A stretch of 64,000 nucleotides of DNA, from NCBI GenBank assembly GCA_964035545.1, contig OZ037767.1, forward strand, positions 4,153,680 through 4,217,679, read 5' to 3'. The stretch's first letter is position 1; each line of letters opens with the position of its first letter. Origin of the DNA: Bugula neritina (lineage: Eukaryota > Bryozoa > Gymnolaemata > Cheilostomatida > Bugulidae). The notes under the pieces were generated by a model, which had not been told where the DNA came from, made no database searches, and saw nothing but the letters and a program-made list of their open reading frames with translations. Position numbers and translations under genes: made by a program. Below, in pieces: positions 2,093 to 56,104 of this stretch.

Positions 2093-5000
2093 CTAGAGAC
2101 TAGAATGTTTCGTTTTATATTCTGTAACTTCTTCGAAGCTGGCATTCTCTTTACAGCTGGAGCTGTTTGAGTCGAAACTGGAAATGTCTGAATCTACGAC
2201 TGTTTCACCGTAACTAGATTCTACAGTGTACACATCACACGTGTCACTTCCTGTCACCTTGTCATCAGAAGACGACCTTGACCGACAACCTTTGTAGTAT
2301 ATGATAGTGATGACCATCATGATAGCTGATGACATCAGAATGGATCCAGCCACAAACAGGAATACATAGTCCCATCGTTGTGTTCGATCATAAATTCCAC
2401 CTGTAACAACCAGCCCAGGCATAACATGTAGTTTATTCTGTGTATTGTTATGTATATATGGTATAACATATGATATTATCTATTATATATTACATTTTAT
2501 ACATCTTTATATATTGTATATTACATATTTTGTTTTTATTATATATTACATAACATGTTACATTTTAATATATATAAAAGCTTATCACTGTAAGTATGAA
2601 ACTGACTTACATGTACATGTAAAAGCATGACATCGTACATATAAAACTTACCTGTATAAGCACTGTAAGTATAAAACTTACCTACGTACTTGTAAAAGCA
2701 TAACATCGAACATGTATATAAAACTTACCAGAAACAAAAGTAGATACTATGGATGACAGACCCTCGTAGACAAAGTTGATGGAGAGACCACTATTGAGGT
2801 TCTCTTTGCCCATTAGCTCTTCTATAGCTGCCGGTATTAAGCCAAATACAGGTATTGACAGCGCCATGATCATAATAGCAATACCTACATAATATACAGC
2901 AAAGTGAGAAGGTGTCGACGTAATAGCTACTACAGAAGAGGTGCTGATAGCTGGCAGGAGGTATCTAGTCCGAGTATGTACTATTTTTACAATAATTGAA
3001 CAATAACTGTAGTAGCAGCAAATATGATTTCATTTTTGAAAACTTGGTAAAGTTTAACATATTAGGCTGCAAACTGTCTGTATAACTATTATATTTGAAA
3101 ATTTGAACCTTAGGTTTTGATTTTAAGGATACTTATTGGATCAGCATCAGCAATAGAAATTAGGTAAAAGTGTTTAATTATTCTATTGATGTTGAAGTGT
3201 TCAAGACTCAATAAGCTGATCATTCACACGCAATATATTACTAAAGATTCTGTGTGAAAGCATCACAGAGTTACCAACTTACCTGCCACTCCTGGAAGCA
3301 CTGCGCACAGTATTCCAGATACTCCTATTATTACAATGTTGATGGCCAGCTGAGCTGTTGGAGGAATAAATCTCTTGTCTGCCAACCAGCCTACAGCCAC
3401 CCGAGCCGGGATCTCCAACCCTCCCCCAACGGCCAGTATAATTGCCACCATGTCTTTGCTTATGCCTGCAAAATTATTCGATTTATATATTTTGTTTTGT
3501 TGGTTGTACAACAGATAATGAGCTTTGCAAATTAAAAATTATATTAAAAAGAATAGTGTTATTTTACACTGTAGTTACGTACTAAATTATGTAGAGAAAT
3601 AGGGCTACCCTGCAGCACTGTGGTGCTACCCTGCAGCACTGTGGTGCTACCCTGCAGCACTGTGGGCACATAAAGAGCATCTAATAGTAATTTTTTTATT
3701 AAATTCACCCTATTCTTGTTTTACGTGCAATAGACACGGTTCAGTGATTATAGCATAAAGGGCACCTTTTTCATTATTTATTGCTCTTTTTTTTCTTTTT
3801 TCCTTGTTATATTACATTACAGAACAATTATTAGCTAATATGATTCAATTTATGTTTACACATTTAACTAAATACTCTCTTGTTTTGCTAAAGAAAACTT
3901 GCTGAGCATATATCAAACCCTTGGCTTTTCTCATTTAACAAACACCTATACATGCAGTATTATGCCTTGGTATTGTAAGGCAGTGTTTAGACGAAAAGAT
4001 TTACGCATCTTAGATAAAATATTATGTTTTATATACTATATAATATTTAGTGTATATTATATAATGCATTATTCGTACCTCTGCTTTGGGCTAACGAAGG
4101 TAGAGCCTGGAAAGCTGCAGTCACTCCAGCTATAAAGAATAGACTAGCCATTCCTATGGCCACAGACTTTGGATTGTAGCTTAACTTTAGGTTGATTGAC
4201 TTGCACTACAACATGATATACACACAACATTATGAGTGATAATGCTGTATGGAATTCTATATATTTTATTATATTATTTAGAACACAATAAATGTGTGTG
4301 TGCGTGCCTTCGTGAGTACATGCGTACGTGCGTATTATTTACACAAACTGATGTTATCACAACGTTGTTATAAAGAACTTTATCTTTACCTTATTATATG
4401 GTAATTGATTTGTTAAAAAATACAAAAAAGTAATTTAAAGGAGATGACTCACTAAACCACATGATGACTTTTTCGTTGCTGTATTTTCATTGGTTGCAGA
4501 CACCTCAGCTTCGTCAGCCGACTCTATCTCTGCTTCTGCTGCCGCTGCTGCCACTTTTTTTGCTGTTTCTATTGAAGCATTTTCTGATGGAATGCTTTCC
4601 ACTTCTCTTACCAGTTGTTTGGTCGGACGGGGGATGTAGTAGGATATTGGTCTGAGCAAAGCCGCCAACACCAGAGTCTGAAGGCATACTCCAGCTACAA
4701 CAATGTTTTCTAATGTTTAGTAAAACAGAACTGAAAAAATCATAATTTTGTTGTTATAAAATGCTTTTGTTTAATTTCCTGCTTATTTTGCATAATAAAT
4801 GTAAGTCTGTGTATAAAGAACAACCTTGGTGACACATCTACACGCAGTTGCACTAATTATCATTTATATATAAGTTTTAAATCTATGGAGCTCAAAACAA
4901 ATATAAATGACAATGCTTTTGATTTTTAGAATTGGTAAATCTGAAAAAACTAAAGCTTTACAAATTCAGGAATTAGAGAAATTTTAACACGTTTCAATGA

Positions 5001-7906: not shown

Positions 7907-8000
7907 CTTTTAAGACCAAGCTTTGTTCTGCAAGAAAGTGAATGAAACCAGAAAGGATACTGTATTCAGTGAACAACTTGTGTACAGTCACTTCTGTTAT
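7907..8000 (-). other. Probable 5'UTR exon and start region of the MFS gene
   Basis: The minus strand reads TTAAAAG|GTAAGG, a good donor with the exon ending at 7907. A matching acceptor (TTTTTGCAG) lies at 7225-7226, 30 nt before the MFS ATG. No reading frame is needed here, so I infer an untranslated first exon. The upstream limit is approximate, and no TATA box was recognised. Confidence 0.5.
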
Positions 8001-12073: not shown

Positions 12074-12091
12074 TTAAGCGGCTAAGGACGT

Positions 12092-14576: not shown

Positions 14577-15901
14577 TTAGATTCCCACTGAAGACGGAGC
14601 TCTTTCAGCCATGTGTTTCTTCATTCTTTCATCAGCTTCAAAATTAGCTGTGAATTCCTTAACCCATGGAGTAATAGTCATGATATCAGGTACTCCTAGC
14701 TTACAAGACTCGAGTGCTGCATATAGCCACACATCTCCTAGCTGGATCTACAAAAGGGATATGATTCGAATATTGTAAATATATGATTTAAAGAGTATTA
14801 CAACTTGTGACAACTGACTTCTTTTAGGATGCGGTGTACTTCATTGGCAAATATTGTCAAGTAACTCTACTATATAATAGACAGAGTAATTACTTTTACA
14901 AAAGCAAATTTTGTACTTGAGTTTCAAAGCTATTTTAAAGTGCATAACTATGGCAACATTTAGTTAGGCGTTATGATTTACTTACATCATTTCCAACGAT
15001 AAACTTTTTTCCTTTCTTATCGGCAATAGATTGAATATAATTCAGATTTTTCACTATTTGCCCTTTGACCTCCTCCATGACCTTTGAAACATCTTCAGGT
15101 TCTGGTTTACTCTTAAATAACTTCCAGGTGTAGATTTTTTCTATGACTGCCTCGTAGAAGTCTTTCGTTACTTCCAAGACTAAATCATTCCAAGTTTCGT
15201 CCCAGCACCCTTCGCCAACTAGCCCTAATAGATTGCATGTCACATTACTGCATATACGTGTTTCTTTCTCATTTATTCAAATATTTACACAGAACTTTTA
15301 GCTATTGGATGTTTTATTTCAGATTTTCTTTTTAATTAGACAGTCAGTATAGCCAATGCTCTTAGTGATCTATTCATTTTTATTATGAAAAATATGTATT
15401 TACAGAAAAAAGGAGGTATAAATACTAAAAAGTGATTGTTCATACCCAATCTTCTGGCGACGTGCCTAGCAATGACATTTGACTGGCACAGAACCTGGCC
15501 CTCTGTTTTAAGGGTTGGCAGTTGCTTCAATGGCTGTTCTAAACGTATATGCAAGTAAATAAATTACTGATATATACAGTACTTAGTCTATTTGAATAAC
15601 CCAGTTGATCAATTTGATATGATATTTGATACACAATCCAATACAGTGTGTGTGCATGTGTGTTAGAGTTTTCGTGTGTAGCATATTGTATAACATCTTG
15701 TATAGTAAACTGTATAAACTCAATAATTTTTACTATTGATTACTGAATACCAAATGATCGCTCACCTTCTTTAACAGCTGGCCAGTCAGCAAACGAAACG
15801 ACCTGGTTGGTGAATTCCTTCTTGGCCACTGCATACAGCATACGAATAGCCTCACCCCTGGCTCTGACGTCAAAGTATATGTAATGATCTTTTTCTGCCA
15901 T
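14577..15901 (-). CDS. Glutathione S-transferase, sigma class (copy A, four coding exons)
   Basis: Cytosolic GST that conjugates glutathione to electrophiles or isomerises prostaglandin-like substrates. Coding exons: 15901-15766, 15538-15446, 15224-14986, 14747-14577; joined length 212 residues, normal for the sigma class. The N-terminal thioredoxin-like domain carries the catalytic Tyr (Tyr9 in YIYFDVRARGEAIR), the Trp-Pro pair near residue 40, cis-Pro53 (KQLPTL) and the glutathione-binding Gln-Ser (CQSNVIAR, residues 64-65). The all-helical C-terminal domain follows (WDETWNDLVLEV, NYIQSIADKKGKKF). It differs from copies B and C by an extra phase-1 intron after the ARRLG codons. An acceptor two bases before the ATG (CGCCACACAG) and a donor near 16252 suggest an untranslated first exon. 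It sits in tandem with copy B on the same strand. Confidence 0.95.
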
Positions 15902-18900
15902 TTCTGTGTGGCGAGAGTAAAACATATTTTATTATGAAGTGCAGTTGTATACAGTTACACCATTTCTACGCATACAGCATGGTCTTATAATGGCTTATTT
16001 TACAGATATTTTTAGCACTATTATAATATTATAGAACAATCATTGCAGCTGCATGATAAAATGATGTGAATGCTATATATATAAATTATCTTGTTTCATC
16101 AAACATCTCATTGTTATAAAAACATTTTATTTATTAGCTGTGAATAATTTTATAATAGTTATAGTTTATGATTCAATAATTAAAAATTGAATCGTGTTCA
16201 ATTAATAAACCAATTTTCAACAAACTTTAATATAATTGAATAAACGTTTTACCTGAATGTTAACAGTTCTTAGTTCTTTAATAGAGTAGCTTGTACAATA
16301 AACTTCTTTCACAGAATGCCGGCAATGGTTATGATGGCAGTTGTTATCACACTATACTGGGCATATTATCATACTTCTTGACCTACAAACATTATAGATT
16401 TGTTTGATCTAAAGATGATTAGAGCTGCTTATGCAGATAAGAATGTGTGCACACTAAGTTATTAGCAAAACCTGCTTGGGTTTAGGACAGTCTGTTTTCT
16501 ATTAAAATAAGATAATGTAAATTTGTGATATAGTTTAACTCTCTGCAACACTCTCTATCTATCACACTCTAACACATTAAAAAAAGACACAGTGTGAAAG
16601 CGAAAGTCAGAAATTCAGAAAAGTAGTAACTAATCACAATGCTACGAATGCAGTTTTTTTTGCTTACACTTTTCTAAATTGAATTGGGTTATCAGTAAAG
16701 ATTCAAATATAATTTATAATATAATCAGCCAAAACTTATGATAGTTATTGCTTTTAATAAATGCAGCTTTATGAGCATTTTTTGCTTTCAAAGATTTGAT
16801 TCCACAGGTTTTATTAATCAACTCTAGCTTATATAATATAGTCAGTAGTAACACTGTAGCGTAGCACATCACCAAAATAGGTGTTGCCTCCCTTGCCTCC
16901 CATTGACAATATGTTTCAATGCTAAGATAATGCAAGTTGGAATATATATCTAATTTTTGAGGTTTAAAGATTTTGAAATTGTGTTCACTTATATCTAACA
17001 GCTGTGAGCAAAATTTAATCAATGTACATAAATGTAAGGAGTTTTCTATTACAGACATTTTATGTTTTCATCATTTTTGCTAAAATGATTTTCATGTATC
17101 ACTGTAACCATGCTCTCCCAGAGAATAAATGAGTTGTTATTGCTGATGTGTTATTTTATTATTCTAACCATCATCATAAAACTTCAAAGTAATTAACAAT
17201 AATGGATAAAAAATATGCAAATATAACTAAAATAATGTTTTATTCAAAGTACAAGTAATTTAACAAGAATCTCCATGCACAGAATTGAAATTAATTGAAA
17301 TTAATTAATTAATTAATTTAATTTAATTAAAATTGACATTAATAAATAAGCCTAAAAACATGATAAATAAAGCATACCTCTTTCACCTTCCCAGGAGTGA
17401 GTTAGTTAGAATATATATGTGTGTAGATATCATATGAATCTAAGTTTGAAAGTACAAACCAAAGTTCTTGCTGAAGGTTTAAAACGGAACTGGTCCTTTT
17501 AGAAAACAGCTGAAATAATGGAATATATTGATAATTCACCCTAATGCAACCTGTGACACCACAGTGGCATCTGGATTACACGCATCCTATTTCTATAGGA
17601 AATCTATTCTATTTCTATTTCTATTTCTTTTGTTATACAAGTCTTTCAATTTGTTTAATAAAAGGGACATATCCTATGCTTAAATATGTAGTAGCTACTA
17701 AATAAACAGCTCTGCAAACAAACAATTAGAAGAAAAAAGAAGCTTTATACCCTAGGGCCTAGAGCCTAGAAAATTGCAATCACCATTGGGTATAAATTGT
17801 TGAAATAGAACGTGATCATAAAGGTTAGTGGTAGATGGTGTTCCTTTCATTACAACACAAAGAGGATATTTGGGAAAATAATCACTAGTTTCTAATCTTC
17901 GTGTGGCTGCAAAATGTTTTGGAAACAGTTGCATGAATGAAACAACAACCATATATGTTAATGCAGATTGCAACCCAATTTCATCATATGCCAAAGTCAT
18001 GGAAACGCAGTGAAAATAATCCGTTAAATTTAGTCTAATTTTCGAGTTGACTCCCACCACTATGCACCATGAGAAGAATTAACAGTTGCTCAAATATTGC
18101 CACTATAACTGGCTAGCTGCATGTGGGAGTATTCAACTTTTATTAATAATTTTCATAAACTTACAATAACATAGACACTTGTTTGTTTAACATAATTTAC
18201 CCACGTCTATTGCAGTTCATCTTGTCAACATTTGCTATAATTCAAATTTATAACCACATTGCATTGCTGCTGAATATTGAACACATTGGCAGCACCGTTT
18301 GAGGTCAGCAAAAAGAGCCAGAAATGGTAATAATTGCAGAAGGAAAATCTGTAGGCAGTTGTCTTCTAAGAAGTTCTGAAGTTAGGATAAAATCCTTTGT
18401 TTTAAATATTCAACTGGCATATTTTCAAAAAGCATTCAAACAGGAATCCAGGCCTTTTTCATCAAACAAGATGATGTGATACATGTGTCCTGCATATTGA
18501 CCTCCATTCAACAAAAGTTAATATTTAATCAGCAAATAGAGTATGTTAGTTATTACTTCTCAGTCAGTCATGCACACACATAAATCTTATAGCTATTATC
18601 AGGTGAAGCATTTCCAGTAGTAACAAATACTGTTATTGCGAGAGTTTAGCTGACGTAAAAATGTTGTATGTTTAGAACTTGTGTATATCCACACAGAAAA
18701 CCTTATTCCTTAGAATATCATTTGTAATTGATATATACCTATACTACCATAGCACCTGGTTGATAATAACACTGTAATGAAGATTTTATGTATTTCAATT
18801 TAGATATGCTTTTGCAGAAGGATTAATGAATAGGAGATTTTTTCAGAAATTTTTTTTCAAGTCATAAAATCGCCCTAATATTTATATATGTGGTTATTAA

Positions 18901-19307
18901 TAGCCCTACAAATATAATGCTATGCCAATTACTACTCCATGTTACATATACTACGACTAAAGGGGATTGCAACCAGCATATTAAATAGCAATACTTACAT
19001 AACTTTCATAATTTTGTTATTTATACTCGTATATTAATTTATTATATTATGCAACAAATGCGAATTGTATAATATTACATCAATACTATGTTATTTTATA
19101 ATATATTATATTGTACTTTACTATATTATATCATCTAGCTTACATTATATTGCATAATATTATAGAATATTATATCACTACAATATTATTTTGCTGATTG
19201 ATTGTCACATGTGACTTCTCTTTAGATTAGCAACAAGAGAGTGGACAACATGTTTAGTATTGTTAGCATATAATATTAAGTTCATAGCAGTCCTTGATCT
19301 GCTGTTG
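15902..19307. other. GST-A 5'UTR/promoter side and intergenic DNA
   Basis: A probable GST-A leader exon ends at 16253 (CATTCAG|GTAAAA on the minus strand). Beyond that, short frames at 16714-17058 and 17752-18060 on the minus strand have no recognisable domain. The second (102 codons, ending in LGSRP) has the more protein-like composition of the two but no intact splice context that I could find. An AATT microsatellite is at about 17288-17330, and very AT-rich sequence runs from 19010 to 19190. Confidence 0.4.
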
Positions 19308-20908
19308 TTATATGCCTGCCGCAGACGGAGGTCTTTCAGCCATGTGTTTCTTTATTCTTTCATCAGCTTCAAACTTGGCTGCGAATTCCTTAACCCACGG
19401 AGTGATAGTCATGATATCAGGGTAGATAACTCTACTCGATTCCAGAGCTGCGTACAACCACACATCTCCCAGCTGGATCTACAAGGCAGAAGAAATCAAG
19501 GCTAATCGAGCTCAAAAATGTACATTTTTGAAATCGATAGGACATAATGGCCAAAAACAAACTAATGGTTTACAATAATTAGTCAATCTGACTACATAGG
19601 GTTCACTCATACTATTGGCTGTTAAAATTATAAAAAAGCCCAGAACTATGGTTAACATATTAGTCATCATGCTTTAAGGCTTTAAAATTAGTTTAATAAA
19701 TCTAACAGTGCAATTTTAGATGGGTTTTATTTGGATTTTCCCAGAATTTAGGTAAAATTGAGGTATTTTAGAACTTGTCATAGCAGGATTTACAAACTTT
19801 TCAAACCTGCTAAAATGGTTATAATCTACCTGGGTTTTAATGCTATAAATTAAGTAACTTTATTTTACATAATTATCTTTGACATGGGTTATGGTTAAAA
19901 CTAATATTTCTAATTCCAAAAGTCAAAAAATGATCTTAATATCTAAAATTATTCAAAAATATTAAAGTTCCACTTTTTGCGCTCATAGATTCAACTCTAA
20001 CTCAAAAGAATTAACACTGGCACATCACTTACTTGATCACAGAGTATGAATTTCTTTCCTCTCCTCTCGGCTATTGTCTGGATGTAGTTAACGTGTTTAA
20101 TGATAGTCTGCCTGACCTCTTCTAAAACTTTTTCCGGGTCTTCTGGTTCAGGCACTCCTTTAAATATCTTCCATAGAAATATCTTAGCAATCACCCCTGA
20201 CTCGTAAAACTCTTTCACAGTTTCCATCACCAAGTCATTGAGTGTCTCGTCCCACTGGGTTGATCCAATCAGACCAAACCTCCTCCCCAGATATCTGGCT
20301 ATTACATTAGACTGACAGAGTACTCCATCTTCAGTGGTTAACACAGGTACTTTGCCCAGAGGTGTGCCTACAATAATTATAGCACATTGGAAACGTCTCA
20401 TGCAGTAACTGTAAATTCATAGATAACTTCTTTAGACAGAAATGAAAAACTTTCTTTTCTACAGTTTAATTTAGTGTCAAATGCTGTGCATGTGTTGCCA
20501 TTCAATGCCATATCAATAAGACAAAGTTTAAATAGAGCTGCATGTAAGCACTGCAAATCTTATAAAGTTTAGTTGGAGGAACTTTGAGTTGAAAGTTTCA
20601 TAGGTTCTAACCAACTCAACTAGAAGTTAAATATGTTGATAGCAATGATATAACACCAGCTTATTAGATATATGCTTATTGAGCAGCTGCTCCAGATATG
20701 TTGTAGTAACATATAGTATAGTTTGAGTATGGCAGTCAACCTGCACTATAGACTAAGTGTCCAACAACTTACTTGGCTTAAGAGAGGGCCACTCTGCAAA
20801 CCCCATTCTCTGGTCATCCAATTCCTTGCCCGCTAGAGCGTATAACATTCGAATTGCCTCTCCACGGGCTCTGACATCAAAGTACAAGTGTTTATCCTGT
20901 TGAGCCAT
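19308..20908 (-). CDS. Glutathione S-transferase, sigma class (copy B, three coding exons)
   Basis: Same enzyme family as copy A. Coding exons: 20908-20773, 20367-20033, 19478-19308; 213 residues. Tyr9 lies in HLYFDVRARGEAIR, cis-Pro in LGKVPVL, and the glutathione-site Gln-Ser in CQSNVIARYLGRRFG. The middle 335-nt exon covers the two middle exons of copy A without an intron. Copy C has the same structure, so B and C are closer to each other. Intron 2 starts with about 58 bp that are almost identical to the intron of copy C, pointing to recent duplication or gene conversion. A leader exon donor is at 21349-21344 and a TATA-like box lies upstream. It is head-to-head with copy C about 3.5 kb away. 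Confidence 0.95.
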
Positions 20909-21349
20909 TATTCTACAGTGAAAGAGTTGTCTTCTCAGTTTCAACTTGTTCTTATATGCTCAAAGATATTATATCGAATGGTTCTATAACCAGCTCCGAG
21001 TTAGTGGTGAAAGACGATTTTAGTTGGGGGGTCTCGCATTTGGAGTTATGTCGTCAACTCTAAACTCAAGACCCCTAAACTCAGTCACCATCAATTCATA
21101 ACTGCTTATAAACGATTCTATTACTTTATGACTCTAGCAATGAAAATCTATACAAAATATAGTCTTTAACAAGCCATATGCTGTAATATTGCAAATTACG
21201 GTCACTATAGCTTTCAGTTCACAAAAGCTGCTCTAAAAACATGATTGCACCATCAAGCACTCATCATAGAAAGACTGCTATTGTCTCGGAAGCCAGTGAC
21301 AGTTTCAATTAGTAAATAAGAATAAAAAGGTGAACTTTAAACTACTTAC

Positions 21350-21425
21350 AAGTGTTTTAGCTTGTGTTATCTCAGCATGAGAAGGTGAACTAATCTCTAG
21401 AACACTTAAAACTGGCCTTTATATG
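21350..21425 (-). promoter_or_regulatory. GST-B leader exon and TATA-box promoter
   Basis: The minus strand reads CATATAAAGG at 21425-21416, a good TATA box. About 70 bp downstream is a splice donor (CACTT|GTAAGT, exon end 21350), so transcription likely starts near 21390 and a short untranslated exon is spliced to the ATG exon. The sequence just upstream of the box resembles the GST-C promoter, with shared words such as TATGCA/TGTGCA, GATCA and ATGACTTGCA in either orientation. Confidence 0.6.
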
Positions 21426-23866: not shown

Positions 23867-24635
23867 AGGATTGCTCTATCTTGTCTAATAAATGGCCATT
23901 TAGGTCAAACACATATAATATTGTGTTTTTCTAAGCATGCATTGACAAAAAGCATTTGACCAAAGGTAGAAAAAGTTAGTTGAAGTTGAGGGTGTAGATT
24001 GGTAACAGCCAAAACGCCGATTTTGAAATGAGCTGGGAAGTGTGACGTAACAGCGCCAGCATTCCTGCTGGTCACGTGACTATACAAATGAATAACTATA
24101 GAAATATGACTGTGAGATGTAATCTTTTAGCTTGCAATTTGTATATTTATAGAAGTGTAAATGTGAATTATCTCAATCTATAGTTTTTTGACATTTTAAA
24201 TAACATGTATGTGAAAACATTAGGCTATATTTTGCTTGTAAACATTAGAAAAAAGCCTTGCAAAAGCATGCATTCTTTAGGATGAATGCTTGCGATCGAT
24301 CTAAACTAAGTCAGATCGTGCAATATTACGGGCACACCAAAGCTGACCTATATAGCGCACTGTAACTGCTTGAGCGTAATTGGTTGATGTTGTGCCCAGC
24401 AACCTTGAATACTAGCGTTATAGTTAGCACGTGCAGCATAGTTACTGGCGTTCACACGTCACGTATTAGGCTATTCTTTTTCATGGCTGAAAATTTTACC
24501 TCCCTCAAAATTGGAATTTTGAAAAGCTGTTTTCTAGGCATATATCCCTTTGCAAAGTCACAATTGTTTGCATACACATTAGATTATAGTTTATAATTAT
24601 AATGTGATTGTAATAAACTAAGATAGAGCAATCCT
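23867..24635. mobile_element. 769-bp non-autonomous TIR transposon (MITE-like), copy 2
   Basis: Same orientation and termini as copy 1 (AGGATTGCTCTATCTT ... AAGATAGAGCAATCCT), flanked by TTAA at 23863-23866 and 24636-24639. One base longer than copy 1, with scattered substitutions. Inside are palindromic GTCACGTGAC and nearby TGACGTAA and CACGTCACGT words, which resemble bHLH E-box and CREB/ATF sites. They are kept in both copies. This copy ends about 230 bp before the GST-C TATA box. Confidence 0.9.
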
Positions 24636-24738
24636 TTAAATCAAAATATTTCCATGACTCATCCTTGCAAAATTAAGTTTTCACCTGTTTCTATACAATA
24701 GTGTAGATATAATATGCAATCATCGCATTCTTGGACGT

Positions 24739-24951
24739 TTCTAGAAGGTTTCATGAATGATTTGATATGGTCCAGTAACTTCCGCACCGATGACTTGCAA
24801 TTTAACATGCTATGCAACTATAGGATGATCACTTTATCATGAATGCCATGCACCTTACACTTTTTGTATATAAAGCAGAATTCTGAACTTAAGAGCACCA
24901 TATTCAACATTTGAAGTGAACTGTTATCATCGTGTATATCAAGAATTGCAG
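24739..24951 (+). promoter_or_regulatory. GST-C promoter and leader exon
   Basis: A TATA box (GTATATAAAG, around 24866-24875) predicts a start near 24897. The leader exon runs to 24951, where AATTGCAG|GTAAAA is a donor; the acceptor TTTTTTCATAG lies seven bases before the ATG at 25130. At 24739-24746 TTCTAGAA, with further TTC/GAA modules around it (TTCTTGGACG before, TTTCATGAA after), looks like a heat-shock-element cluster about 150 bp upstream of the start. Function is inferred from motif only. Confidence 0.6.
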
Positions 24952-25129
24952 GTAAAAAACACTAATTTCAGTGAATATAACATTTACTTCAACTTATTGA
25001 CTACACTCAGCTATATGCTTTTTCTCTGCGTTTGTTGAAGTGACATAGTTACATTAGACATGTATATTATATATAAATTAGACATGTGTACATTATACAT
25101 TAAGGAACAACTTTTTTCATAGCATAAGA

Positions 25130-27105: not shown

Positions 27106-30100
27106 TTAATCAGATGGCAGTTCATCTAACTGTTTCCTGGTAACTGTAAAGTTATGGTTGAGCTGGGGGTCATAATGCAGACTATATCTAGAGCCAAGGG
27201 CACCTGATTTAGTTGCCATCTCATAGTGTACATGTTTAATCCTGGAGTGTAACAGTGACATGGCACACCTGTGTAAAATGCAGGTAGAATGATATTGTGT
27301 GGTATAAGTTGAAAATTTAGAATGGAAAAAAAAGCAAGTTCAACAACCAACTTAGAATATTTCTAGCAATAAATAAGACATGTGATGAATATTGAAGGCA
27401 CATAAATAAAAATTACCAGGAGTTCATATTTAAACCTTAAAAATAAGCCACTTTATTGAACAAATGAGAGCTGGTTTAAAAATTAACTTAATTTGAGCTC
27501 ATTAAAATAAAATATAAAAAGTAAGAGAGGCATTGTGTTGTTTTAAACCAGATTTAACATCGTACTTTATCTTATAGTAAAAAGAGCATGTACATTTCAC
27601 ATAAAGGTTTGTGCTGGTAATCTTCCAGTCTAGTATGAATAACTAAATGCTCAACAAGAAAAAATCATTAGAAACTAACATAGTGCAGGGCTCGTGAGTG
27701 AGATAGGCTGTGTACCCAGTGCAAATGTAGTCTTCCTCTCTACTCGCTTCCATCTTTTTCTTCTTAGCCTTAGGACTAGCAGGTGAAATATTGCTGTAAG
27801 CAAAGTGATAAATTATAGAATAATAAATGTCACTAAAAGTCCTACAAGCCAACAATGATATTGCTAGGCACATGGGGGTCGACTAAAAGTATAAATTAGC
27901 CTCGGCAGTCAAATCATGCATAATAAATCAGAATAAATTGATAATTTAAACTTGGAATTGAGCAAATCATCATACTGCCATTCAAAAAATACCATAAATT
28001 GCTGTCAGAATTTTTTTGGCTTTAGTCGGTACATTCGACATGGCGGAAATTAAAAAACAGTAAATCCTTGCTTGAAATTTCCAAACTTTGATAGAAACGA
28101 TTGACTCTATTAACTACTAGTCTATATTCAATAATATTGATTACAGGTAATATTAATCCCATCGAATATATACTTCGTTGACAGAATTGGGCAACTAATC
28201 CAGTGCTAATCTCACGGAATACAAACTCCAATGTAAACCACCTGTGAGCGGAAGGACATAAGACTAGAATTGTGTCAGATAATCTTGGTGGTAAGCAGGG
28301 GCAATGCAACCTTGTGGTTGGTTGAACTTTTGACAGGAACTGATTATTGGCTGTGATGACCAAACAATTGATAACTTATTACTTTCAATCAAATCAAAGC
28401 AGCCTTAAAAGTTGTACAAAAGTATGTGATATATAAAAAACCTGAAAACTGGCACATGTGTTTTCAGTGCTCGCCAGCTTAGCTTTAAATTTGTTTTTTA
28501 CTAATAAATACCAATCTACAACACTAAGATGCAACAGCACCCTATTAGCTAGAGGTAGGTGCAGTAATGGTGAAATTGAGAAAAGCCTGTGTTCTAGATT
28601 AGAAATTTGTAGCAAAAGAAATTATGTTCTCACAAGAATTTCAACCCGAGCCCCAACCAAAATCAATAAAGAAATTTGAAGAACTGAGGCTATCTCAATT
28701 TATCCACTACTGCTACTAAATGATTAGTTACTCATACTGACTAGATACTGACTCTAACCGACTAGATACTGACTAGATGCTGACTCTAACCGACTAGACA
28801 GTGACTTGAGCCAGTTTACCAGAACATACATACCTGCAATACTGAGAGGTAATATGAGCCGTGCTTGACCACGCCCCTCCACCCTGCTGATGAGCTACGC
28901 TGTCAATAGCTACCATTACAGAGTGTTTGAGAGGATGAGCATCGGACATTGAGTAACCAACTCCCATGACTTTCTGGCTATTTGCGTCTGCTATTACAGC
29001 ACCACACTACAACATGAGTTGCTATTACAGCGCCACACTACAACATGAGTTGCTATTACAGCGCCACACTACAACATGACTTGCTATTACAGCACCACAC
29101 TACAACATGACTTACCATTACAGCGCCATTTTATAACGTGGCTTATTACTACAGCGCCACATTGCAACAAGAGTTGTTATTACAGCACCACAGCATGACT
29201 TGCTATCACAGCACCATACAATAGCTTAGGGGACTATTGAAGTACCACACTAACACAGTTAATTGCATAAATTAAAATCTTAATATACAGTATCAGCCAA
29301 CACATCAGGGAGCAATAACATCATATAGAAAGCTCCGTGTACTTTGGAAGTTGTGCAACTCAAACTAAATATTAGATATCTTGCTGGGCTAAAGATTATC
29401 ACAGTGGAAGTTGTAATGTACTAACAAACACAATGTAGATATATGCCTCGTAATGAATCGAAAAGCATCACTTGATGGCAACTCATGAACATGTAAATCT
29501 AGCAATCTACCCTCATGTTTGTACAGAAACTTTACTCACTTTAAAACCACCTTTACTATGCTTGGACAGCTGATGGGCCAAATCTATGCACTTTTTATCA
29601 AACTCCGACATAGCAACCAAACCCAATTTTTTCTCCAACCTAAAAAGATTAAAAACTGATATAAAATAACAATAATAGCCAATCTGATGATTATTCTTTA
29701 GCATGGCGTAAACTTAGCTTTAGATCATTGATTTACTAAGCAAGCTTACTCTTGATCTTCATGAAAGAACGTAGGCCACAGTTTGCAAGCCTCATCATAT
29801 TGAGCTCGAGTTACAGGCTGTCTGGAGGCAGCTTGACAATGGTAGGATTCGGCAGCTACGGCATCAGACGGTATACCAGTGTCCTTGAGTATAGTGCGGT
29901 GACAGGAGGCTGTCGGGTCAGCCGTGTCAGCGACAGCACAGAGTAAGACATGTAGTGTCTTTCTACCTGTGAATAAGTGTGAAGAAGTGAAACAAGATAG
30001 AGGAGTTAAATAAAATTTTTCAAATATGGTGTAAGACATGGACTAAAATAAGCTTTCTCTTTTCACATTTAACATTTTGCAAGTTGGTTGAAATCTGCTG

Positions 30101-40617: not shown

Positions 40618-43600
40618 ATGGGCGCCTTTGTGCTGCAAGTTATAATCTTGTTGATGTCGTTATGCAATCTACTCAATGCTGCCATATCTTGTTATGGAAA
40701 TGACAAGAAACCAGTTGACTGGTGAGGTTTTTTACAATTATTTTATAAATATCTATTCAAGTCTAGTACTTTCTTGTTTATGTCAACTGTATGTTCTACA
40801 GACGAAAATAAATCAAATCTCAATTTATTTTTATATAGTCCCACACAAATTGCTATTTCTTATAGGTTTATAGTGTATAAGCTACCCGTGTATTACACGA
40901 AAAAGCTAAATGCAAAATATACATTCCCTCCTCACCTCTACATGGACAGCCGCAACCCTAACTTTCAGTTTCTTACTCAATCACTCAACGAAACATCCCA
41001 GGCAGTGGCCTATACTCTTCAACAGGCATACGCAAATAGGCAATCACCAGTACGTCTTTATTCTAACTTTTCTTGTATTCGCACTAAAAGTTAAATAATT
41101 TTGAAAAGTAAAATAGATTAAGGTCTCAATAGTTGCATCTTTTGCTTACAATATTCAAATCCTTTGTAACCTCACCAATGGCGCTTACCGAGGTTCTTTA
41201 ATTAGTTGTGTTAGTTGAATTGTTTATCTACAATATAAGACCTATCTCATGCAGCTTTGTGAAAATGCTTGTTTCTGTACAGGATGTGGGATATATATTC
41301 TACAATGACGAGAAGCCTTTGGCTGCTGGAGGTGGCGTCACTGAGAAATATGGACATACTAAAGGTCTGTTCTATGCGTTAATATCAGTATCTGACAGTT
41401 GATAGTAACCTTTATATAATTAGTTAAGAAAGCCCTCATAGTTATATCCAATGGACAAACTCCAGCCGTGTTCTATAGTTTAATTACTGTCTTCATTTTA
41501 TTTCATTACGCCACGTAGTCCAGCTAAATTTTGTTGATCATCTTATTGCTTCTACAATAAAATTTGCACATTTTGTCATCTGGCCAATCTTAACAGAGAT
41601 AAATTTAGCATATCAGGTTTTCCATCTGCTGAGAGTTTAGATATTTCACTTTTTTAGTTAATCTAGGTGAACTTTTAATGAGTTGCTTATTTAATTTATA
41701 ATATTTTTCTATTAGGTGTGACTATATTTGATGAGAGTACTGCAGTGTGGCTTATCCACAGTGTACCCAAGTTTCCTCCTCCCACCAACACTTCGTACAG
41801 CTACCCTGACACTGGCCTCTACTACGGGCAACATATGATGTGTGTCAGCGTCTCAACGGCTGATGATGTCTCTAACATAGGTATGTGTGTAGATGACAGC
41901 GTCTGTCTCTAACATAAGTATGTGTGTATGTAGGTGAGTGTCTATTATAAGTTGAACCTGTAAGTGCTAACTTCTGACTCTAACCACAAGGTATGTTTTT
42001 AACTTAATGTAGTTAACCTCCAGTAAATTATGTAACATTTACCATCTCTGATAAGTCAAATCATTTAGTGAATTGCTGCCACATAATGAATCGTGGAAAT
42101 ACCAGTTCTGTTTTGTTTGTTTTAGGACTACAGCTGACCTACAATCAACCTTGGGTGTATGATTACCAAATTCCGCCTCAGCTGGGTGATAAATATCCCA
42201 CCATGTTGAATGTCATTACTGGTGTTCAACATTCGCATGACAGCCATGTGGAGCTAATTCACAGCTCGGTTCAGCAGACAGTCTTCATTGTGTTTGCCAA
42301 GTCTCCTAGCTTCAATCAAGGTAAGCGTAGTTCTAAGTCTAAGGTAAGCATAGTCCTAAGTCTAAGATAAGCATAGTTCTAAGTCTAAGGTTTCATATTG
42401 TACCCATTTCTTCTTGAAAAATTAGTTCTCTTGGCAATTCATATGCACTTTCCAATATTGCAGGTTTTTCTTCGCCAAATTTAATTAACCTTTTGTCTGT
42501 GATGTCTTTAACTGTTGATTTGTGAGATATTCGTGATAGTAACTTTGATAACATCATGGCTTTTCATATAAGTGAAGGTGTCTCAAATACATCAGCTGGT
42601 TATAATTAGCTTTGTGTTTCGACCACATAGTTTAAGACATGCTTGATTCTATCAAGTTGAAATTTGATACATTCTAACTTTAACTCAAGTTGTTGGCTAC
42701 TTTCAATACTAATAAAATATTCTAGTGGTTGATAAGCGCTGAGTGAACTTCTATTGTAAACCTACAGTACATTTCCCTAGGACTATATGTTCTCTCTCTC
42801 ATATTGTAAGATACAAGGTTATACACTCTCTCTCTCTCATACTGTCAGATACAGGACTTTGTACTCTCTCATGTTGTAGATTTGTACTCAGCTATGGTTG
42901 CTCCATCTCTGCAGTGCAACCTGTTGACAGAAACTTGGCAGAACGGACCAAAGAGTGGTAATTTACCCTCAGCCTGCAACCAGACCTACAAGGTTGGTGT
43001 TTGTGCTTCTAGTCACCTAATAATAAGTACATGTAAGGATATTAACTGTTTTTTTTGCTAGGTACAACTAAGAATTTTATATATATGCTGTAGATGTGTT
43101 TAAAAGGTTCTGTATTATGATTAGAAATAGCATAGTTAGTTACACAATAAATAGCACCCCTGGGACTTAATGCTATTTACTATATTGTGTATTCAAACTT
43201 GTTTTTTCTCTCAACATTTTGGCATTAATATGGGTTACCTTTGTGAAACTCATATTGTTATATCCAGGATACTGGTTGTTGATTTTCACTGTATATATGC
43301 TGTGTAGGTGGAGACAGTGTTGAGTATAGCTAACAAACAGCTCAATATCAGTTACTCTAATCATATGGATCATTCTAAGTTGGCAGTCTGCAGTGACTCA
43401 GGCTATATATGTGTTGGTGACATAAACAGACAGGTGAGTTATATGTAAGCGACATGAGCAGACAGGTAAGTTATGTGTCAGTGACATGAACAAACAGGTG
43501 AGTTATGTGTCAGTGACATGAACAGACAGGTGAGTTATGTGTCAGTGACATGAACAGACAGGTAAGTTATGTGTCAGTGACATGAACAAACAGGTGAGTT

Positions 43601-44059
43601 ATGTGTCAGTGACATGAACAGACAGGTGAGTTATGTGTCAGTGACATGAACAGACAGGTGAGTTATGTGCCAGTGACATGAACAGACAGGTGAGTTAGGT
43701 ATTATTGACATGAATATTAAAGCATATAATATTTAATAGTCTGTGATTATTTTATTAAACTCTGCCAATGATTAATTTGTCTGTTACTCTTTCAGGTATC
43801 AGTTCTGTCTGCAATGCTATTTGAAATAATCCTTTCCTAATTCTTTAGTCTGATATATCCAATCAAACTATTTAGAAATGACTCACACTGCATACTGTTT
43901 TTAAAAAGAAAGTCAACTTAATACATGTTTCTGTTGTAGAGCCATCAACTGGTTCGTGGAGGTGGCACTGTATGTTTCTTTGACTTGGGAGTACAGAAAC
44001 AGTACATGTCTCTCATTCAATCCATTGACACGTGCAAGCAATATAGATCCAATGAGTAG
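40618..44059 (+). CDS. Deoxyribonuclease II (acid, lysosomal), eight coding exons
   Basis: Acid endonuclease of lysosomes/phagosomes that cuts DNA to 3'-phosphate ends. Coding exons: 40618-40721, 40866-41049, 41283-41364, 41716-41880, 42126-42320, 42880-42992, 43308-43433, 43940-44059; 362 residues, the usual family length. The first 22 residues (MGAFVLQVIILLMSLCNLLN..) form a signal peptide, followed by the conserved ISCYGNDKKPVDWFIVYKLP. The pseudodimeric PLD-like HxK motifs are both present: GHTKG (His121, Lys123) and the catalytic DHSK (His303, Lys305). Other family landmarks are WLIHSVPKFPPP, YYGQHMMCVSVS and QLTYNQPWVYDY. Several Asn-X-Ser/Thr sites fit a secreted glycoprotein. Three or four introns carry splice-junction tandem repeats. 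A poly(A) signal AATAAA lies at 44767. Confidence 0.95.
41868..41935 (+). repeat. Duplicated exon-end/donor block after DNase II exon 4
   Basis: GTCTCTAACATAG|GTATGTGTGTA at the true donor (41868-41891) is followed 37 bp later by GTCTCTAACATAAGTATGTGTGTA. The last 13 exon bases and the donor are therefore present twice. Confidence 0.85.
42318..42390 (+). repeat. 23-bp donor-containing triplet repeat after DNase II exon 5
   Basis: Starting exactly at the exon border, AAG|GTAAGCGTAGTTCTAAG is repeated at 42318, 42341 and 42364 with a period of 23 bp. The third copy has ATAAGC instead of GTAAGC, so two copies keep a consensus donor. Confidence 0.9.
42786..42884 (+). repeat. Tandem acceptor-like blocks before DNase II exon 6
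   Basis: Three successive blocks of about 40-50 bp, each a CTCTCTC tract followed by ATATTGTAAG|AT, ATACTGTCAG|AT or ATGTTGTAG|AT. Only the last, at 42879, is the frame-correct acceptor. The first exon bases (ATTTGTACTC) are echoed by TTTGTACTC and TTATACACTC in the upstream units. Confidence 0.65.
43416..43715 (+). repeat. 32-bp donor-containing minisatellite after DNase II exon 7
   Basis: The end of exon 7 plus its donor (GACATAAACAGACAG|GTGAGTTATGTG) is the first of nine head-to-tail copies. The eight intronic copies read GACATGAACAGACAGGTGAG with period 32 bp and few differences. All eight keep a consensus GTGAGT or GTAAGT donor. Because 32 is not a multiple of 3, and each unit contains an in-frame TGA in some phase, use of a downstream donor would normally end the protein before exon 8. 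Confidence 0.95.
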
Positions 44060-44766: not shown

Positions 44767-44772
44767 AATAAA
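44767..44772 (+). terminator. Poly(A) signal of DNase II
   Basis: AATAAA 708 bp after the stop codon, followed by a T-rich stretch. It is the first canonical hexamer downstream of the stop that I noticed. Confidence 0.5.
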
Positions 44773-50823: not shown

Positions 50824-53800
50824 ATGAAAGGATTGAAAGTCTTGCAGTATTATGCTAAACGCAGTATTTTCCAAAGTCGACACCTCTCTTTAAGTTTATC
50901 TGCTAAATCAAATCAAAATGTGAGTAGGAGTCGTTATGATCATCATTCATTCATTGTGATTACGATTTAATTTAATGCACGATCGATTCGTTTGGCACAT
51001 GAGCGTTGTAACTTACAAGCAAACTGTTTAAAAGAAGTTGAATTCGAAATGTAAGCATGCGAATAGATAACTCACTCACCTCGTAAAATTAGGACACTCT
51101 GCTAACACCTACAGGCGCAAAATTATGAGTGCCTCTTAAGTTGTTTTTGTTTGGGTTTATCATGTGTTAAAATGTATCTATTCTAGCATGTAGCTAAGTT
51201 TATATTACAGACAATGACATAGTCCACTTCTTTTAGGTGAGAATTGGTTTCGCTGGATTGGTTGGGAACACACCTCTTGTTCGGTTAAATTCAATGAGTG
51301 AAGAAACAGGCTGTGAAATACTTGCCAAAGTTGAGTCAGCTAATGGTGGTGGATCTGTCAAAGATAGGGCAGCTTTGTTTTTAATCAGAGATGCTGAAAA
51401 CAAGGGCTTATTACGACCAGGTAAATAGCTGAAACAGGACACATCAAATTCAGTTTACTAATCAAAAATTAGTTCAATTGAAAAAATACCATAACATTGA
51501 ATATTTTTATTAATATGTTATTAGAAAATGTAGTCATTCCCGAGACTTGATGCCATCTACATGTTGAAATAGAACTTATTCTTCAAGTTTATGCATAAGA
51601 ATAAAACTGTTCATTGAACAGTATTTAAATAAATTTTCACTAAAATAGATAAGACCTAAATATGCAAAAACTATTACACTTTTCAACAATTTTTTTTTAC
51701 CACTGGCAGGAAAATGTATTACCTCTGTAAAACTTGACCATGTGTATGTTGTATTTTTCATTGTCATTTCCTTGCAGGGGGTACAGTAGTGGAAGGAACA
51801 GCGGGAAACACTGGGATAGGTCTAGCTCATGTGTGCAATGCTTTAGGTTATAAATGTGTTATTTTCATGCCCAATACACAATCGAAGGTATGTGTAATAA
51901 GCTCATCTCTAAGTTCATGTTGTTTAACATAGTAATATACTGTTATCAGTATTCTCCCAACTGACTCACTATTTGGTATATTGATAAGTAAACTCTCTGC
52001 ATGCTAATTAGATTTATTCTAATTCCTTGTAAATAATTGTTTATAGTTTGTTGACTGTATTTTTAGCATTTTAAGTTTAAAAGTTTGAAGATTCGTATTT
52101 GCTTGTTATAAATAAAACTGACACGAGTTTGAAAATCTCAAATAAACACTTCCACTAAGTAATATTTTCATGCACATATGTAAATTTTTAACCTAAAATA
52201 AATATTTCTTTGCCAGGAGAAAATAGAGTTGTTAGAGACTCTGGGAGCGGAGGTCAGGCCTCAGCCAGTGGTGCCGTGGGATGACCCTATGAACTATAAC
52301 CATCAGGCTGCCAGATACGCCGACAGCATAGACAATGCTGTGTGGACCAACCAGTTTGACAACACTGCAAACAAGCAAGCTCATATTGAGACTACCGGAC
52401 CTGAAATATGGTCACAAACCGGTGAGAGTGGATGGGGTCATTGAGTTCACCTCCCATACCCCATGTTGTGATAGAATAGTTATATTCTCAATATTGGTTT
52501 TTATGTTCTGGTGCTTGCAATAGAGTCGAGATTAGTTTGAACAACAAATGTTTATGCTGATGCTAATTATAATATTTAGGTTTATTTTAACTCAACAGTT
52601 TTTAGTATTTTAGAACTACTATCGCTATGTAAGCATAGGCCTATGTGTACTATCAAGTATGGCTTTGTTTTGGATAAGAAATCAGTTGACAAAAATAAGT
52701 ATGACTAAAACTTATCATCAACAATGCACTTATTGGGCAGTTTGCTTCGTCTACCCTTATGTTTTTATAACTTTTGGTAAGTTTGGTAGATTGAGTGAAT
52801 TTAAACTTTCTAATGTCACTCAAAGGTTTTAGCCGCCTGTTTTTATGAAAACTCCAAGTCAAATTGAATATTTAGTTGAAATAAACTGTTTTCAAAAAGC
52901 TAGCGTTGTTCTTCGCTTGACTTATTGGTTAGGTTGAGACTAAAATGACTCTTCAATGATTTAACTACTTCATTTATATCAGAATCTTATGAAGGATTCT
53001 GGATACTTGCTACTGTTGCTTTTCCTTCTCTTGGTGTGTCGTCATTACTAGATAATGTCTTCCTTTCATAAACAGGTGGGAAAGTTGATGCTGTGGTGTT
53101 TGGCACTGGCACTGGTGGAACTCTAGCTGGTGTAGCAACTTATCTCAAGGAGATGAATCATAAAATACACACAGAGCTGGCTGACCCACAAGTAATATGC
53201 CAGTTATAATATAGTAATATACTAAATATAATATACTAGCTATAATATAGTAATATACTAAATATAATATACTAGCTATAATATAGTAATATAATAGGTG
53301 TGATGTAATAGTATATTAGATATTATCTAATAATCTACTACATATAATATAGTAGCATACTAAATATAATGTAGTAATATACTAGTTATAAGATAGTAAT
53401 ACTAGCTATAATATACTAGGTGTGATATAGTAATATACTAGGTGTGATGTAATAGTATATTAGATATTATCTAATAATATACTACATATAATATAGTAGC
53501 ATACTAAATGTAATGTAGTAATATACTAGTTATAAGATAGTAATACTAGATATAATATACTAACTACATGCAGACTATCTTTATTTAACGCTGACCTGTT
53601 TGCTAAAACCAGAGTTGTCTGCTCTCTTATAAGACACAATTGATGATTTGGTGGAGGAAAACTAAACGCTGAACTTATTTAAACATTATTCTACATTCTA
53701 AATAGTTTATACCAAATAGGAATGCATAAAAATCTACTGTTAATATTTTAGTATGTATTTTTAGGTGACAAATTAATTTTCATATCTTTATTATAGGATG

Positions 53801-56104
53801 TGTATTAACCAAGTTTCATATTTGGTGTTTACTTTATTTTATTTCAGTTATATATTGAAAGTAGTTGTTACCGTAATTAAGTTTTGCATATTTACTATGG
53901 ATGTACTGTATAACTACATCAAACTGTGTATATTTAGGGCAGTGTACTGTATAACTACATCAAACTGTGTATATTATAAGGTAGTGTACTGTATAACTAC
54001 ATCAAACTGTGTATATTATAGGGTAGTGTACTGTATAACTACATCAAACTGTGTATATTATAGGGTAGTGTACTGTATAACTACATCAAACTGTGTATAT
54101 TATAGGGCAGTGTACTATATAACTACATCAAACTGTGTATATTATAGGGCAGTGTACTGTATAACTACATGAAACTGTGTATATTATAGGGCAGTGTACT
54201 GTATAACTACATCAAACTGTGTATATTATAGGGTAGTGTGCTGTATAACTACATCAAACTGTGTATATTTAGGGTAGTGTACTGTATAACTACATCTAAC
54301 TGTGTATATTTAGGGTAGTGTACTGTATAACTACATCAAACTGTGTATATATAGGGTAGTGTACTGTATAACTACATCTAACTGTGTATATTTAGGGCAG
54401 TGTGCTGTATAACTACATCAAACTATGTATATTTAGGGTAGTGTACTGTATAACTACATCAAACTGTGTATATATAGGGTAGTGTACTGTATAACTACAT
54501 CTAACTGTGTATATTATAGGGTAGTGTACTGTATAACTACATCAAACTGTGTATATTTAGGGCAGTGTACTGTATAACTACATCAAACTGTGTATATTAT
54601 AGGGTAGTGTACTGTATAACTACATCAAACACGGTAAACTAGAAAGGTCGGAGGGATCTTCTATAGCGGAGGGTATAGGTCAAGGTCGAGTGACTGCTAA
54701 CCTTAAAGATGCACCTATTGATGATGCTCACGTTGTCATGGATACGGATGCTGTTCGAATGGTATTCAACATATCTGTATATAGTGATCGATTACATTGT
54801 ATTTCTTACTTGGTTTTAGGAAATGTTAATATTTTTGGTAAAATAGTCTTTTAAGCTTGACTCACACGCATTCTGAATTAAACATCTTTCAACCCTCAGT
54901 TATACAGATTTTATCATACTTATATATGTCATAATTTTATAATATCTAACTCTCTTTGCAATTTTTAATCTTTGCTATGCGTTTGATCTAATTTGTTAAA
55001 ATGCTGTTTTTGTTAGCTGACGAGTTTGCACAAAATAACTTTCAGCTAAATTTTAATGGATAATTTACAATGATGGTTTATATTCTTTGCAAAAATTGTT
55101 TAATATTTATTGTAGCATAAATGTTATTTGTTTTTCATTCTCATAAATGAGTCATGGCACGCAATGACCAGACATGCTCATATTTCATGTGATCAGAAAG
55201 TTGTCTTCTCTACTCGCTTGTGTTTCCTGTTGTAGACCTTCCGTTTGCTTCACGAAGAAGGATTCTTTGTTGGGGCTTCAACCGGGTTGAACGTTGCTGG
55301 GGCTGTCAAGGTACGCCTTCTAGTGTACTCTGTCATACGTTATACTATGTTACTGTGTCATAGTGTGTACTCTGTCTATGACACTATGTTACTCTGTTAT
55401 ACTATACTCTGTCATACTATACTCTGTCATACTATACTCTGTCATACTATACTCTGTCATACGTTACTCTGTCATACTATACTCTGTCATACTATACTCT
55501 GTCATACGTTACTCTGTCATACTATACTCTGTCATACTATATACTCTGTTATACTATACTCTGTCATACTATACTCTGTCATACTATACTCTCTCATACT
55601 ATACTCTGTTATAATATACTCTGTTATACTATACTCTGTCATATTGTACTCTGTTATAATATACTCTGTTATACTATACTCTGTCATATTGTACTCTGTT
55701 ATAATATACTCTGTTATACTATACTCTGTCATACTATACTCTGTCATACGTTACTCTGTCACATGTCACCTACGTTATCTCTGTATATTTTAGGTAGCTA
55801 AAGACTTAGGACCTGGCCACACTATAGTCACATGTATCTGTGATACTGGCAGTAGATACTATGCTAAACTATATAGTCGAGAGTTTCTTCAATCCAAAAG
55901 TAAGATAACTCCACCAACTTGTAATGCATTCTTTCTGTTTACAAAACCAGAGTTAACTTTTATAGATATTGTATAATAATTGAAGCTCAGTAAATATTTA
56001 GCTTGTTGTATGCATATTTAATTATGAATATTGCTACCAGCTTGATTTATTTTTCAGATCTGCTGGATTGTATCCCAGAAGCCTACCAGGTGTCACTGCA
56101 CTGA
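50824..56104 (+). CDS. Cysteine synthase-like PLP enzyme (CysK/MCY1 type), nine coding exons
   Basis: Fold-type II PLP enzyme of the O-acetylserine sulfhydrylase/cystathionine beta-synthase group. Coding exons: 50824-50919, 51237-51420, 51778-51887, 52217-52421, 53076-53191, 54603-54761, 55236-55310, 55794-55899, 56058-56104; 365 residues. Exon 1 encodes a basic, Ser/Leu-rich, acid-free 32-residue leader that looks like a mitochondrial targeting peptide. The core begins VGNTPLVRL; the Schiff-base lysine is Lys74 in [10 protein letters not shown]. The substrate loop is [13 protein letters not shown], the PLP-phosphate loop is [11 protein letters not shown], and [15 protein letters not shown] and FVGASTGLN follow. 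The EGTAGNTG variant of the usual E-P-T-S-G-N-T-G loop is what I recall for the fungal mitochondrial MCY1 branch. There is no heme or CBS domain. Introns 5 and 7 contain large tandem arrays. Confidence 0.93.
53192..53575 (+). repeat. AT-rich repeats seeded at the exon 5 donor of cysteine synthase
   Basis: From the donor (CCACAA|GTAATATGCC) the intron continues as repeated blocks of TATAATATAGTAATATACTA with period about 43-45 bp. Then come two copies of a block of about 140 bp containing GGTGTGATGTAATAGTATAT and TACTAGTTATAAGATAGTAA. The hexamer GTAATA of the donor recurs throughout. Confidence 0.8.
53898..54632 (+). repeat. 41-42-bp acceptor-plus-exon minisatellite, 18 copies, cysteine synthase exon 6
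   Basis: The genuine exon 6 acceptor and first codons (TATATTATAG|GGTAGTGTAC then TGTATAACTACATCAAAC) form the last of about 18 head-to-tail copies. The 17 upstream copies read TGTGTATATTATAGGGTAGT or, in one-base-shorter variants, TATATTTAGGG, and all keep an AG|GG. In the exon 6 frame every decoy copy reads GSVLYNYIK and then runs into the next unit's TAG, so an upstream acceptor would truncate the enzyme. Another frame is open over 124 codons, but that is a by-product of the 42-bp period. Confidence 0.95.
55311..55770 (+). repeat. 15-bp TACTCTGTCATACTA array in cysteine synthase intron 7
   Basis: About 25-30 units of a 15-bp repeat (variants TACTCTGTTATACTA and TACTCTGTCATACGT) fill nearly the whole intron from about 10 bp after the exon 7 donor to 30 bp before the exon 8 acceptor. 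The 15-bp period keeps long frames open on both strands (YSVIL/TEYSM repeats); these are not genes. Confidence 0.95.

Follow-up and report, generated by a model that had tools for sequence, protein, structure and literature searches.

Tandem arrays at the junctions of four genes

The window, a stretch of 64,000 nucleotides analysed here as a whole, is part of chromosome 3 of Bugula neritina and carries MFS, ADAT3, DNase II and cysteine synthase genes in which short tandem repeats run across exon–intron junctions. An earlier note on this DNA had counted at least seven such introns in four genes and had taken the exon border to be always one terminal unit of the array. The four genes stand, but the count becomes eight junctions in six introns, of which four are enclosed by strong arrays (two DNase II donors, the ADAT3 acceptor and the cysteine-synthase acceptor) and four are graded weak (DNase II at 41880 and 42880, MFS at 2729 and cysteine synthase at 53191/53192). 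The exon border does form a terminal unit in all four strong arrays.

The DNase II gene, on the forward strand, holds half of these junctions. The longer of its strong donor arrays, at 43408..43714 (32 bp × 9.6; TRF, exon model and geometry), has its junction at 43433/43434, and the exonic portion GACATAAACAGACAG encodes D-I-N-R-Q within the motif GDINRQ, which is also present in Watersipora subatra P0081 in the DNase II alignment. The other strong donor array, at 42318..42391 (23 bp × 3.2), was found by the same three approaches and crosses its junction at 42320/42321, with only AAG as shared exon bases. Two copies at the donor at 41880 (41867..41928), spaced 37 bp apart and with 14 exonic bases in common, were recognized by direct reading with a geometry score of 22 and are absent from the TRF output. 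A weak repeat occupies 42791..42888 on the acceptor side of exon 6 (geometry score 10); the 38 bp × 2.1 part found by TRF ends 9 bp short of the acceptor (42880), and TTTGTACTC is repeated on both flanks of this acceptor, which is among the weakest cases.

The ADAT3 acceptor array lies on the reverse strand at 28989..29192 (31 bp × 6.6; TRF, geometry and homology), and its exonic portion encodes G-A-V-I-A, which aligns with the ADAT3 chain of PDB 7nz7. The cysteine-synthase acceptor array, on the forward strand at 53902..54630 (42 bp × 17.5), was supported by TRF, the exon model, geometry and homology; its 28 exonic bases encode GSVLYNYIK and align with the cysteine synthase of PDB 5jis. At the opposite end of this intron a TA-rich array (53191..53566, forward strand; TRF) begins at the donor 53191/53192 and also ranks among the weakest cases, and the next cysteine-synthase intron carries an array without a junction for comparison (55390..55761, forward strand, 15 bp × 24.7; TRF). 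The donor of the last MFS intron (2729), within 2605..2732 on the reverse strand, was identified by direct reading, with imperfect, unequally spaced copies of GTAAGTTTTATA and a geometry score of 14, and counts as a weaker case.

Unit structure and reading frame

In the window, in the sample and at the donor-motif loci described below, the tandem unit includes the exon–intron boundary. Units are about 20–44 bp long and combine 3–28 exonic bases with the adjoining intron bases, the extra copies sitting on the intron side of the junction. The founder copy is the exon edge at three of the four strong arrays by homology, and alignment at the arrays so tested demonstrates that the copy at the exon edge is the one that codes and is conserved. 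The repeat phase is variable: the exon fraction of the best repeat shift ranged from 0.05 to 0.75 across 21 cases, and the geometry analysis found no fixed position of the unit ends relative to AG/GT. The earlier statement that copies decay away from the border is clearly borne out in ADAT3 but does not generalize to the eight arrays tried, as two sample arrays fall slightly, the DNase II array at 43433 is poorest at both ends, two (L028 and L044) are flat, and the cysteine synthase and L034 rows gave no usable profile.

It had further been proposed that the arrays multiply usable splice sites. This is doubtful, since among the seven junction arrays tested a shift to the next copy would produce a frameshift in six and an in-frame stop in the seventh. 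To judge from protein conservation and these broken frames, the exon-proximal splice site probably stays in use. Existing introns seem to have been lengthened by the arrays.

Recurrence across the genome and preference for junctions

Arrays of this type occur well beyond the window. A blind check took 19 arrays on C1–C2, chosen solely by repeated CAGGTRAGT among the matches listed, and in 14 of them a coding exon terminates at the first copy or immediately upstream of it. An exon score of at least 15 was reached by 13 of the 19, compared with 21% of 124 donor-like non-predicted sites and 82% of 60 predicted donors; for the coding score alone (at least 4.5) the corresponding figures were 11 of the 19, 19% and 67%. 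An SH3 exon lies beside one further array of the set. In the sample, a striatin-interacting protein gene has an acceptor array of 41 bp × 7.1, and the alignment of the adjoining exon with its PDB relative starts at GVFGE. Both donor and acceptor boundaries are thus affected in the window and the sample, in several genes and on several chromosomes, and the central claim of the earlier note, that tandem duplication across donors and acceptors recurs in unrelated genes and apparently lengthens their introns, holds up outside the window. The 100 listed matches of one strong donor motif yielded 19 arrays, 14 of them tied to an exon; extrapolated roughly, this amounts to about 200 arrays for that motif and suggests that boundary repeats are common in Bugula neritina.

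Whether junctions are preferred is a separate matter. The local comparison of arrays at junctions with random expectation came out near random: 6 of 78 intronic arrays overlapped a junction against 6.5 expected, and 6 of the 19 with a score of at least 120 against 4.0, with no clear excess in either case. Among the six arrays counted, the one at 24427 in block B2 depends on a doubtful exon and that in B4 was entered with a period of 224 although its unit is 44, and the filter that removed 2 of 280 introns (those of at least 3 kb) left the strong DNase II junction at 43433 out of the count. The near-duplicate profile around junctions in the remaining 278 introns had no junction peak; these introns came from a purpose-built gene finder rather than from annotation, and it merges neighbouring genes and invents small exons inside arrays.

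Motif counts gave a different impression. Per occurrence, triple arrays were 3.3 times as frequent for the donor 9-mer (1120/6654) as for five pooled control 9-mers (879/17191), where the controls vary from 0.35% to 6% and exonic and intergenic sites are included. Hand-collapsed arrays on C1, among the matches listed, numbered 16 for the donor 9-mer and 9 for the control (about 2.9-fold, p about 0.01, with approximate site numbers). GTGAGT in triple had 21,000 matches against 12,375 for the backward motif, but these raw counts, not normalised to single sites, were given no weight. A contrast of 1120 matches with 6 for a backward motif was dropped as misleading, as four further controls gave 106–305. 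Exact 9-mer chains of at least three were founded at 236 of 151,681 intron positions in six blocks (0–0.44% by block), whereas 1.8% of donor-motif sites on C1 lie in arrays; two control motifs on C1 gave 0.6%, so part of that gap is not junction-related. When the two were compared over one region, the initial 2.9 Mb of C1, donor loci gave 3 of 56 and control loci 3 of 102, which is no significant excess (p 0.67). Donor-motif and control-motif arrays cluster alike toward chromosome ends: among the matches listed, 13 of 16 donor-motif arrays on C1 lie at most 5 Mb from an end, and the control-motif arrays give 10 of 13 on C1–C3 and 21 of 28 on C1–C4.

Origin of the arrays and known systems

The explanation favoured here, with a probability of roughly 65%, is that the arrays are minisatellites whose founder unit chanced to straddle an exon–intron junction. 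A short tandem duplication would arise through slippage, unequal exchange or break repair, and then expand and contract. Given short introns, with a median of about 400 bp, and units tens of bp in length, some arrays must straddle a junction. Those arrays would survive while the exon-adjacent splice site remains used, because a switch to a different copy would shift the reading frame or introduce a stop; protein selection would preserve the exon copy, leaving the intron copies to drift.

A less likely alternative is that junctions or their transcription, through breaks, R-loops, pausing or AG/GT microhomology, favour the birth of tandem duplications. The roughly threefold donor 9-mer excess, the rarity of founding among the intron positions sampled and the presence of donor repeats in three introns of DNase II speak for it, and against it stand the same-region comparison on C1, the lack of a junction peak in the 278 introns, the near-random overlap, the unit ends lying anywhere relative to AG/GT, the involvement of acceptors and the same end bias in controls, so that the proposed seeding at exon–intron borders is not established. 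The broader proposition, that in bryozoans and amphioxus minisatellites are born or retained at splice junctions at least three times as readily as in other sequence, which would make junctions genuine hot spots and let introns grow from their edges by repeated junction copying, is likewise unlikely.

A function for the arrays, for example as U1-binding decoys or stepwise splicing points built of CAG/GTRAGT units, could be read from the intact motif kept in many units, but acceptor arrays and arrays free of splice motifs also occur and units of 20–44 bp fall short of intron size, which makes it very improbable. Tandem repeats are difficult to assemble, yet an artefact is hardly credible in an assembly, presumably of long-read origin, with a contig N50 of 4.0 Mb and a consensus quality of 53.7, in which copies within an array differ from one another and the pattern is repeated in the window, in block B4 and at the 19 loci of the blind check. 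There is also little to be said for the arrays having created the introns by duplication of exon segments, as Ebner et al. proposed for amphioxus. Exonic sequence is indeed duplicated beside the junction, and the array in the striatin-interacting gene fills most of a 340-base intron, but the strong window arrays touch one intron side and non-repeat intron sequence remains. In the model of Rogers, as described, tandem genomic duplication carrying AG/GT splice signals produces a new intron inside an exon, whereas in Bugula existing introns seem to be lengthened.

Chance founding with retention of the exon copy remains the preferred account. The arrays themselves have precedents, contrary to the earlier remark that no description was known: the "mirages" of amphioxus, and a 1995 paper whose title names a human minisatellite with multiple splice donor sites. 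The Bugula arrays belong to this already named kind of repeat and are real and recurrent. The human minisatellite is said to be that of the IFI6 (6-16) gene, where inner donors are reportedly used. As in IFI6, a donor site is repeated in Bugula, although the human case concerns one gene. Human internal tandem repeats in segmental duplications (PMC2812944) are reported to have units averaging 30 bp and to alter introns, some lying at exon–intron boundaries; these differ in belonging to young primate paralogs and in reportedly forming novel introns.

The closest likeness is to the mirages, described from Adh3, the globins Gb6 and Gb9, TnC and PGBD5 as minisatellite-like repeats across the 5' or 3' exon–intron boundary of unrelated genes, with units of 10–160 bp. 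Both their splicing and their length instability are on record, normal mRNA splicing in spite of the copies and copy-number or somatic instability being among the traits of the kind. The Bugula arrays likewise span boundaries, at donors and acceptors of several unrelated genes, and their units fall inside the mirage range. They differ in their host, a bryozoan rather than a cephalochordate, in having been sought genome-wide rather than gene by gene, and in being described from genome sequence. Boundary repeats known from a few amphioxus genes are thereby extended to a second animal phylum, in which an annotated genome of 20,264 genes, deposited as two haplotypes, makes their proposed role in intron growth and gain testable.

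Junction arrays in the window and elsewhere

The genome analysed comprised 215.8 Mb in 295 contigs, with the window at C3:4153680-4217679. The tzBugNeri2.1 description gives slightly more for this bryozoan, 216.00 Mb in 320 scaffolds, with chromosome sizes of 35.64, 33.58, 32.42 and 24.80 Mb for C1-C4 and 16.05 Mb for C6 (PMC11480708). Gene models came from a small two-strand gene finder trained on the window plus 240 kb from five blocks (C1, C2, C3, C4 and C6), where it placed 31 above-threshold genes and 350 introns with a median length of 396 bases. The window also holds a row of three GST genes (14580-26738), one of which, full-length, had its top match in Bugula neritina (78% identical) with Watersipora next, and, on the minus strand, a tandem repeat in coding sequence with many M, P, N and Q residues (33014-34186), the exons upstream of which presumably encode an RNA-recognition-motif protein. 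By eye, long open frames at 61108-63910 (minus strand) resemble a BED zinc finger and hAT-like transposase-derived gene, and those in five loci at 5.00-5.05 Mb on C2 (L009-L013) resemble an LTR retrotransposon polyprotein amid predicted exons.

TRF reported 170 arrays of period at least 10 in the 304 kb of window and blocks. Four strong arrays in the window contain a junction, namely the DNase II donors at 42320 and 43433, the ADAT3 acceptor at 29006 and the cysteine-synthase acceptor at 54603. The earlier note had placed the introns' own junctions within tandem repeats, which stands for these four and is weaker for four others: a two-copy repeat at the DNase II donor at 41880, an imperfect repeat at the MFS donor at 2729, and two additional marginal cases. 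Two clear cases lie in the sampled block at ~2.5 Mb on C4: at the end of one exon, 44-bp units form a donor array, and a striatin-interacting protein gene has an acceptor array with a 41-bp unit. Used as a DNA query, the DNase II array gave two matches, both 69-70% similar: a diverged donor array in locus L003 (1501-1651), adjoining an exon that we take to be gamma-glutamyltransferase-like, and an ambiguous one in locus L002 (1501-1744).

The exon edge as founder copy

Judged from the sequence, the direction of copying is from coding sequence into intron, not from intron into exon, because the repeated exonic bases align with homologous proteins. Those of cysteine synthase translate as GSVLYNYIK, which lines up with a cysteine synthase of known structure; those of ADAT3, as GAVIA, which aligns with a PDB ADAT3 chain; and those of DNase II, as DINRQ, part of a GDINRQ motif that is unchanged in Watersipora, also a bryozoan. 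The alignment of the striatin-interacting gene starts at GVFGE, just within the repeated part. In 21 of 23 cases, those scoring at least 15, the exonic part of the repeat measures 3-28 bases, or 0.05-0.75 of the best repeat shift, some of these ratios being too low since the best shift can cover two units (83 for the 42-bp cysteine-synthase unit). No fixed repeat phase relative to AG/GT was found among the 21.

Splicing at the neighbouring copy would cause a frameshift in six of the seven junction arrays examined and, in cysteine synthase, would keep the frame and add a stop, so the exon-proximal site is probably the one in use, as protein conservation, rather than RNA, indicates. It is doubtful that the extra copies serve as usable splice sites.

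Donor-motif arrays and the question of junction preference

Three tandem copies of the donor motif CAGGTRAGT gave 1120 matches genome-wide; manual grouping of the first 100 listed left 19 arrays, on C1 and at the beginning of C2, all inspected. A good exon (score at least 15) ends at or shortly before the first copy in 13 of the 19, versus 21% of 124 donor-like non-predicted sites and 82% of 60 predicted donors, and a coding score alone of at least 4.5 was reached by 11 of 19, versus 19% and 67%, the array sites being scored slightly more leniently (shorter exons allowed, several upstream donors tried). One further array adjoins an SH3 exon, bringing those linked to an exon to 14; in the remaining five, no convincing exon was found in the additional 0.8 kb searched. 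In a Pfam scan of ten of these 14 peptides, SH3 and myosin tail scored above the cut-off, three matched weakly (MCM OB, PFK and N_Asn_amidohyd) and five had no match.

Of the 16 donor arrays on C1, 13 are no more than 5 Mb from a chromosome end (28% expected), as are 10 of 13 control-motif arrays (counted on C1-C3, leaving out those listed on C5 and C6) and, among the matches listed in a second count, which reach into C4, 21 of 28 control-motif arrays on C1-C4. The similar end bias of donor and control arrays speaks for a single, general minisatellite process in the distal regions. Across C1-C4, arrays of three motifs concentrate within 5 Mb of the ends, and repeat density over six stretches varies widely, from 0.1% to 3.75% of positions.

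That the process is genome-wide, as the earlier note proposed, is supported by the recurrence of the arrays and by the exons beside most motif-picked ones; on its seeding at exon borders the evidence divides. Array-junction coincidence in the 304-kb sample did not stand out from random placement in the same introns, with 6 overlaps observed versus 6.5 expected for 78 intronic arrays, and 6 versus 4.0 for the 19 scoring at least 120. Near-duplicates in 278 introns had a frequency of 1.8% at donors, 1.4% at acceptors and, for comparison, 1.1-4.7% at 30-200 bases inside, where long arrays inflate the values, and within the initial 2.9 Mb of C1 arrays of at least three copies occurred at 3 of 56 donor-motif loci versus 3 of 102 control loci. 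These three comparisons do not favour a junction effect. The per-match excess of the donor motif and the low rate at intron positions do favour one. Triples per single match reached 16.8% genome-wide for the donor motif versus 5.1% for five pooled controls (individually 0.35%, 5.6%, 4.9%, 6.0% and 5.8%), and the array-level donor/control ratio on C1 was ~2.9 (p ~0.01, site numbers approximated). The C1 rate was 1.8% of donor-motif sites versus 0.6% for two control motifs, with sampled intron positions below both (exact chains of at least three from 236 of 151,681 positions in six blocks; 0-0.44% by block). Three factors may each play a part here: k-mer make-up, the exonic and intergenic mix of the controls, and better retention of arrays that a conserved exon copy anchors. 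The 9-mer TGARTGGAC is nearly absent from triple arrays (6 triple versus 1700 single matches), far under the other controls.

Relation to known boundary repeats

A minisatellite in human DNA with several splice donor sites is, going by its title, the subject of a 1995 paper. No bryozoan report of boundary repeats was found among the titles and abstracts listed from the literature searched, where subscription papers were mostly missing. Tandem duplication as a source of intron gain is treated in two papers (PMC2891723, PMC3443670), and human exon-intron boundaries also bear tandem repeats, according to a third (PMC2812944). The earlier note knew of no description of such arrays; one exists for amphioxus, where the repeats in globins and Adh3 were named 'mirages' and proposed as a route of intron gain (PMC3087553), and PGBD5 and TnC were added as mirage genes (PMC3902484). 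Like the Bugula neritina arrays, the amphioxus mirages are repeats that run across exon-intron boundaries (PMC3087553).
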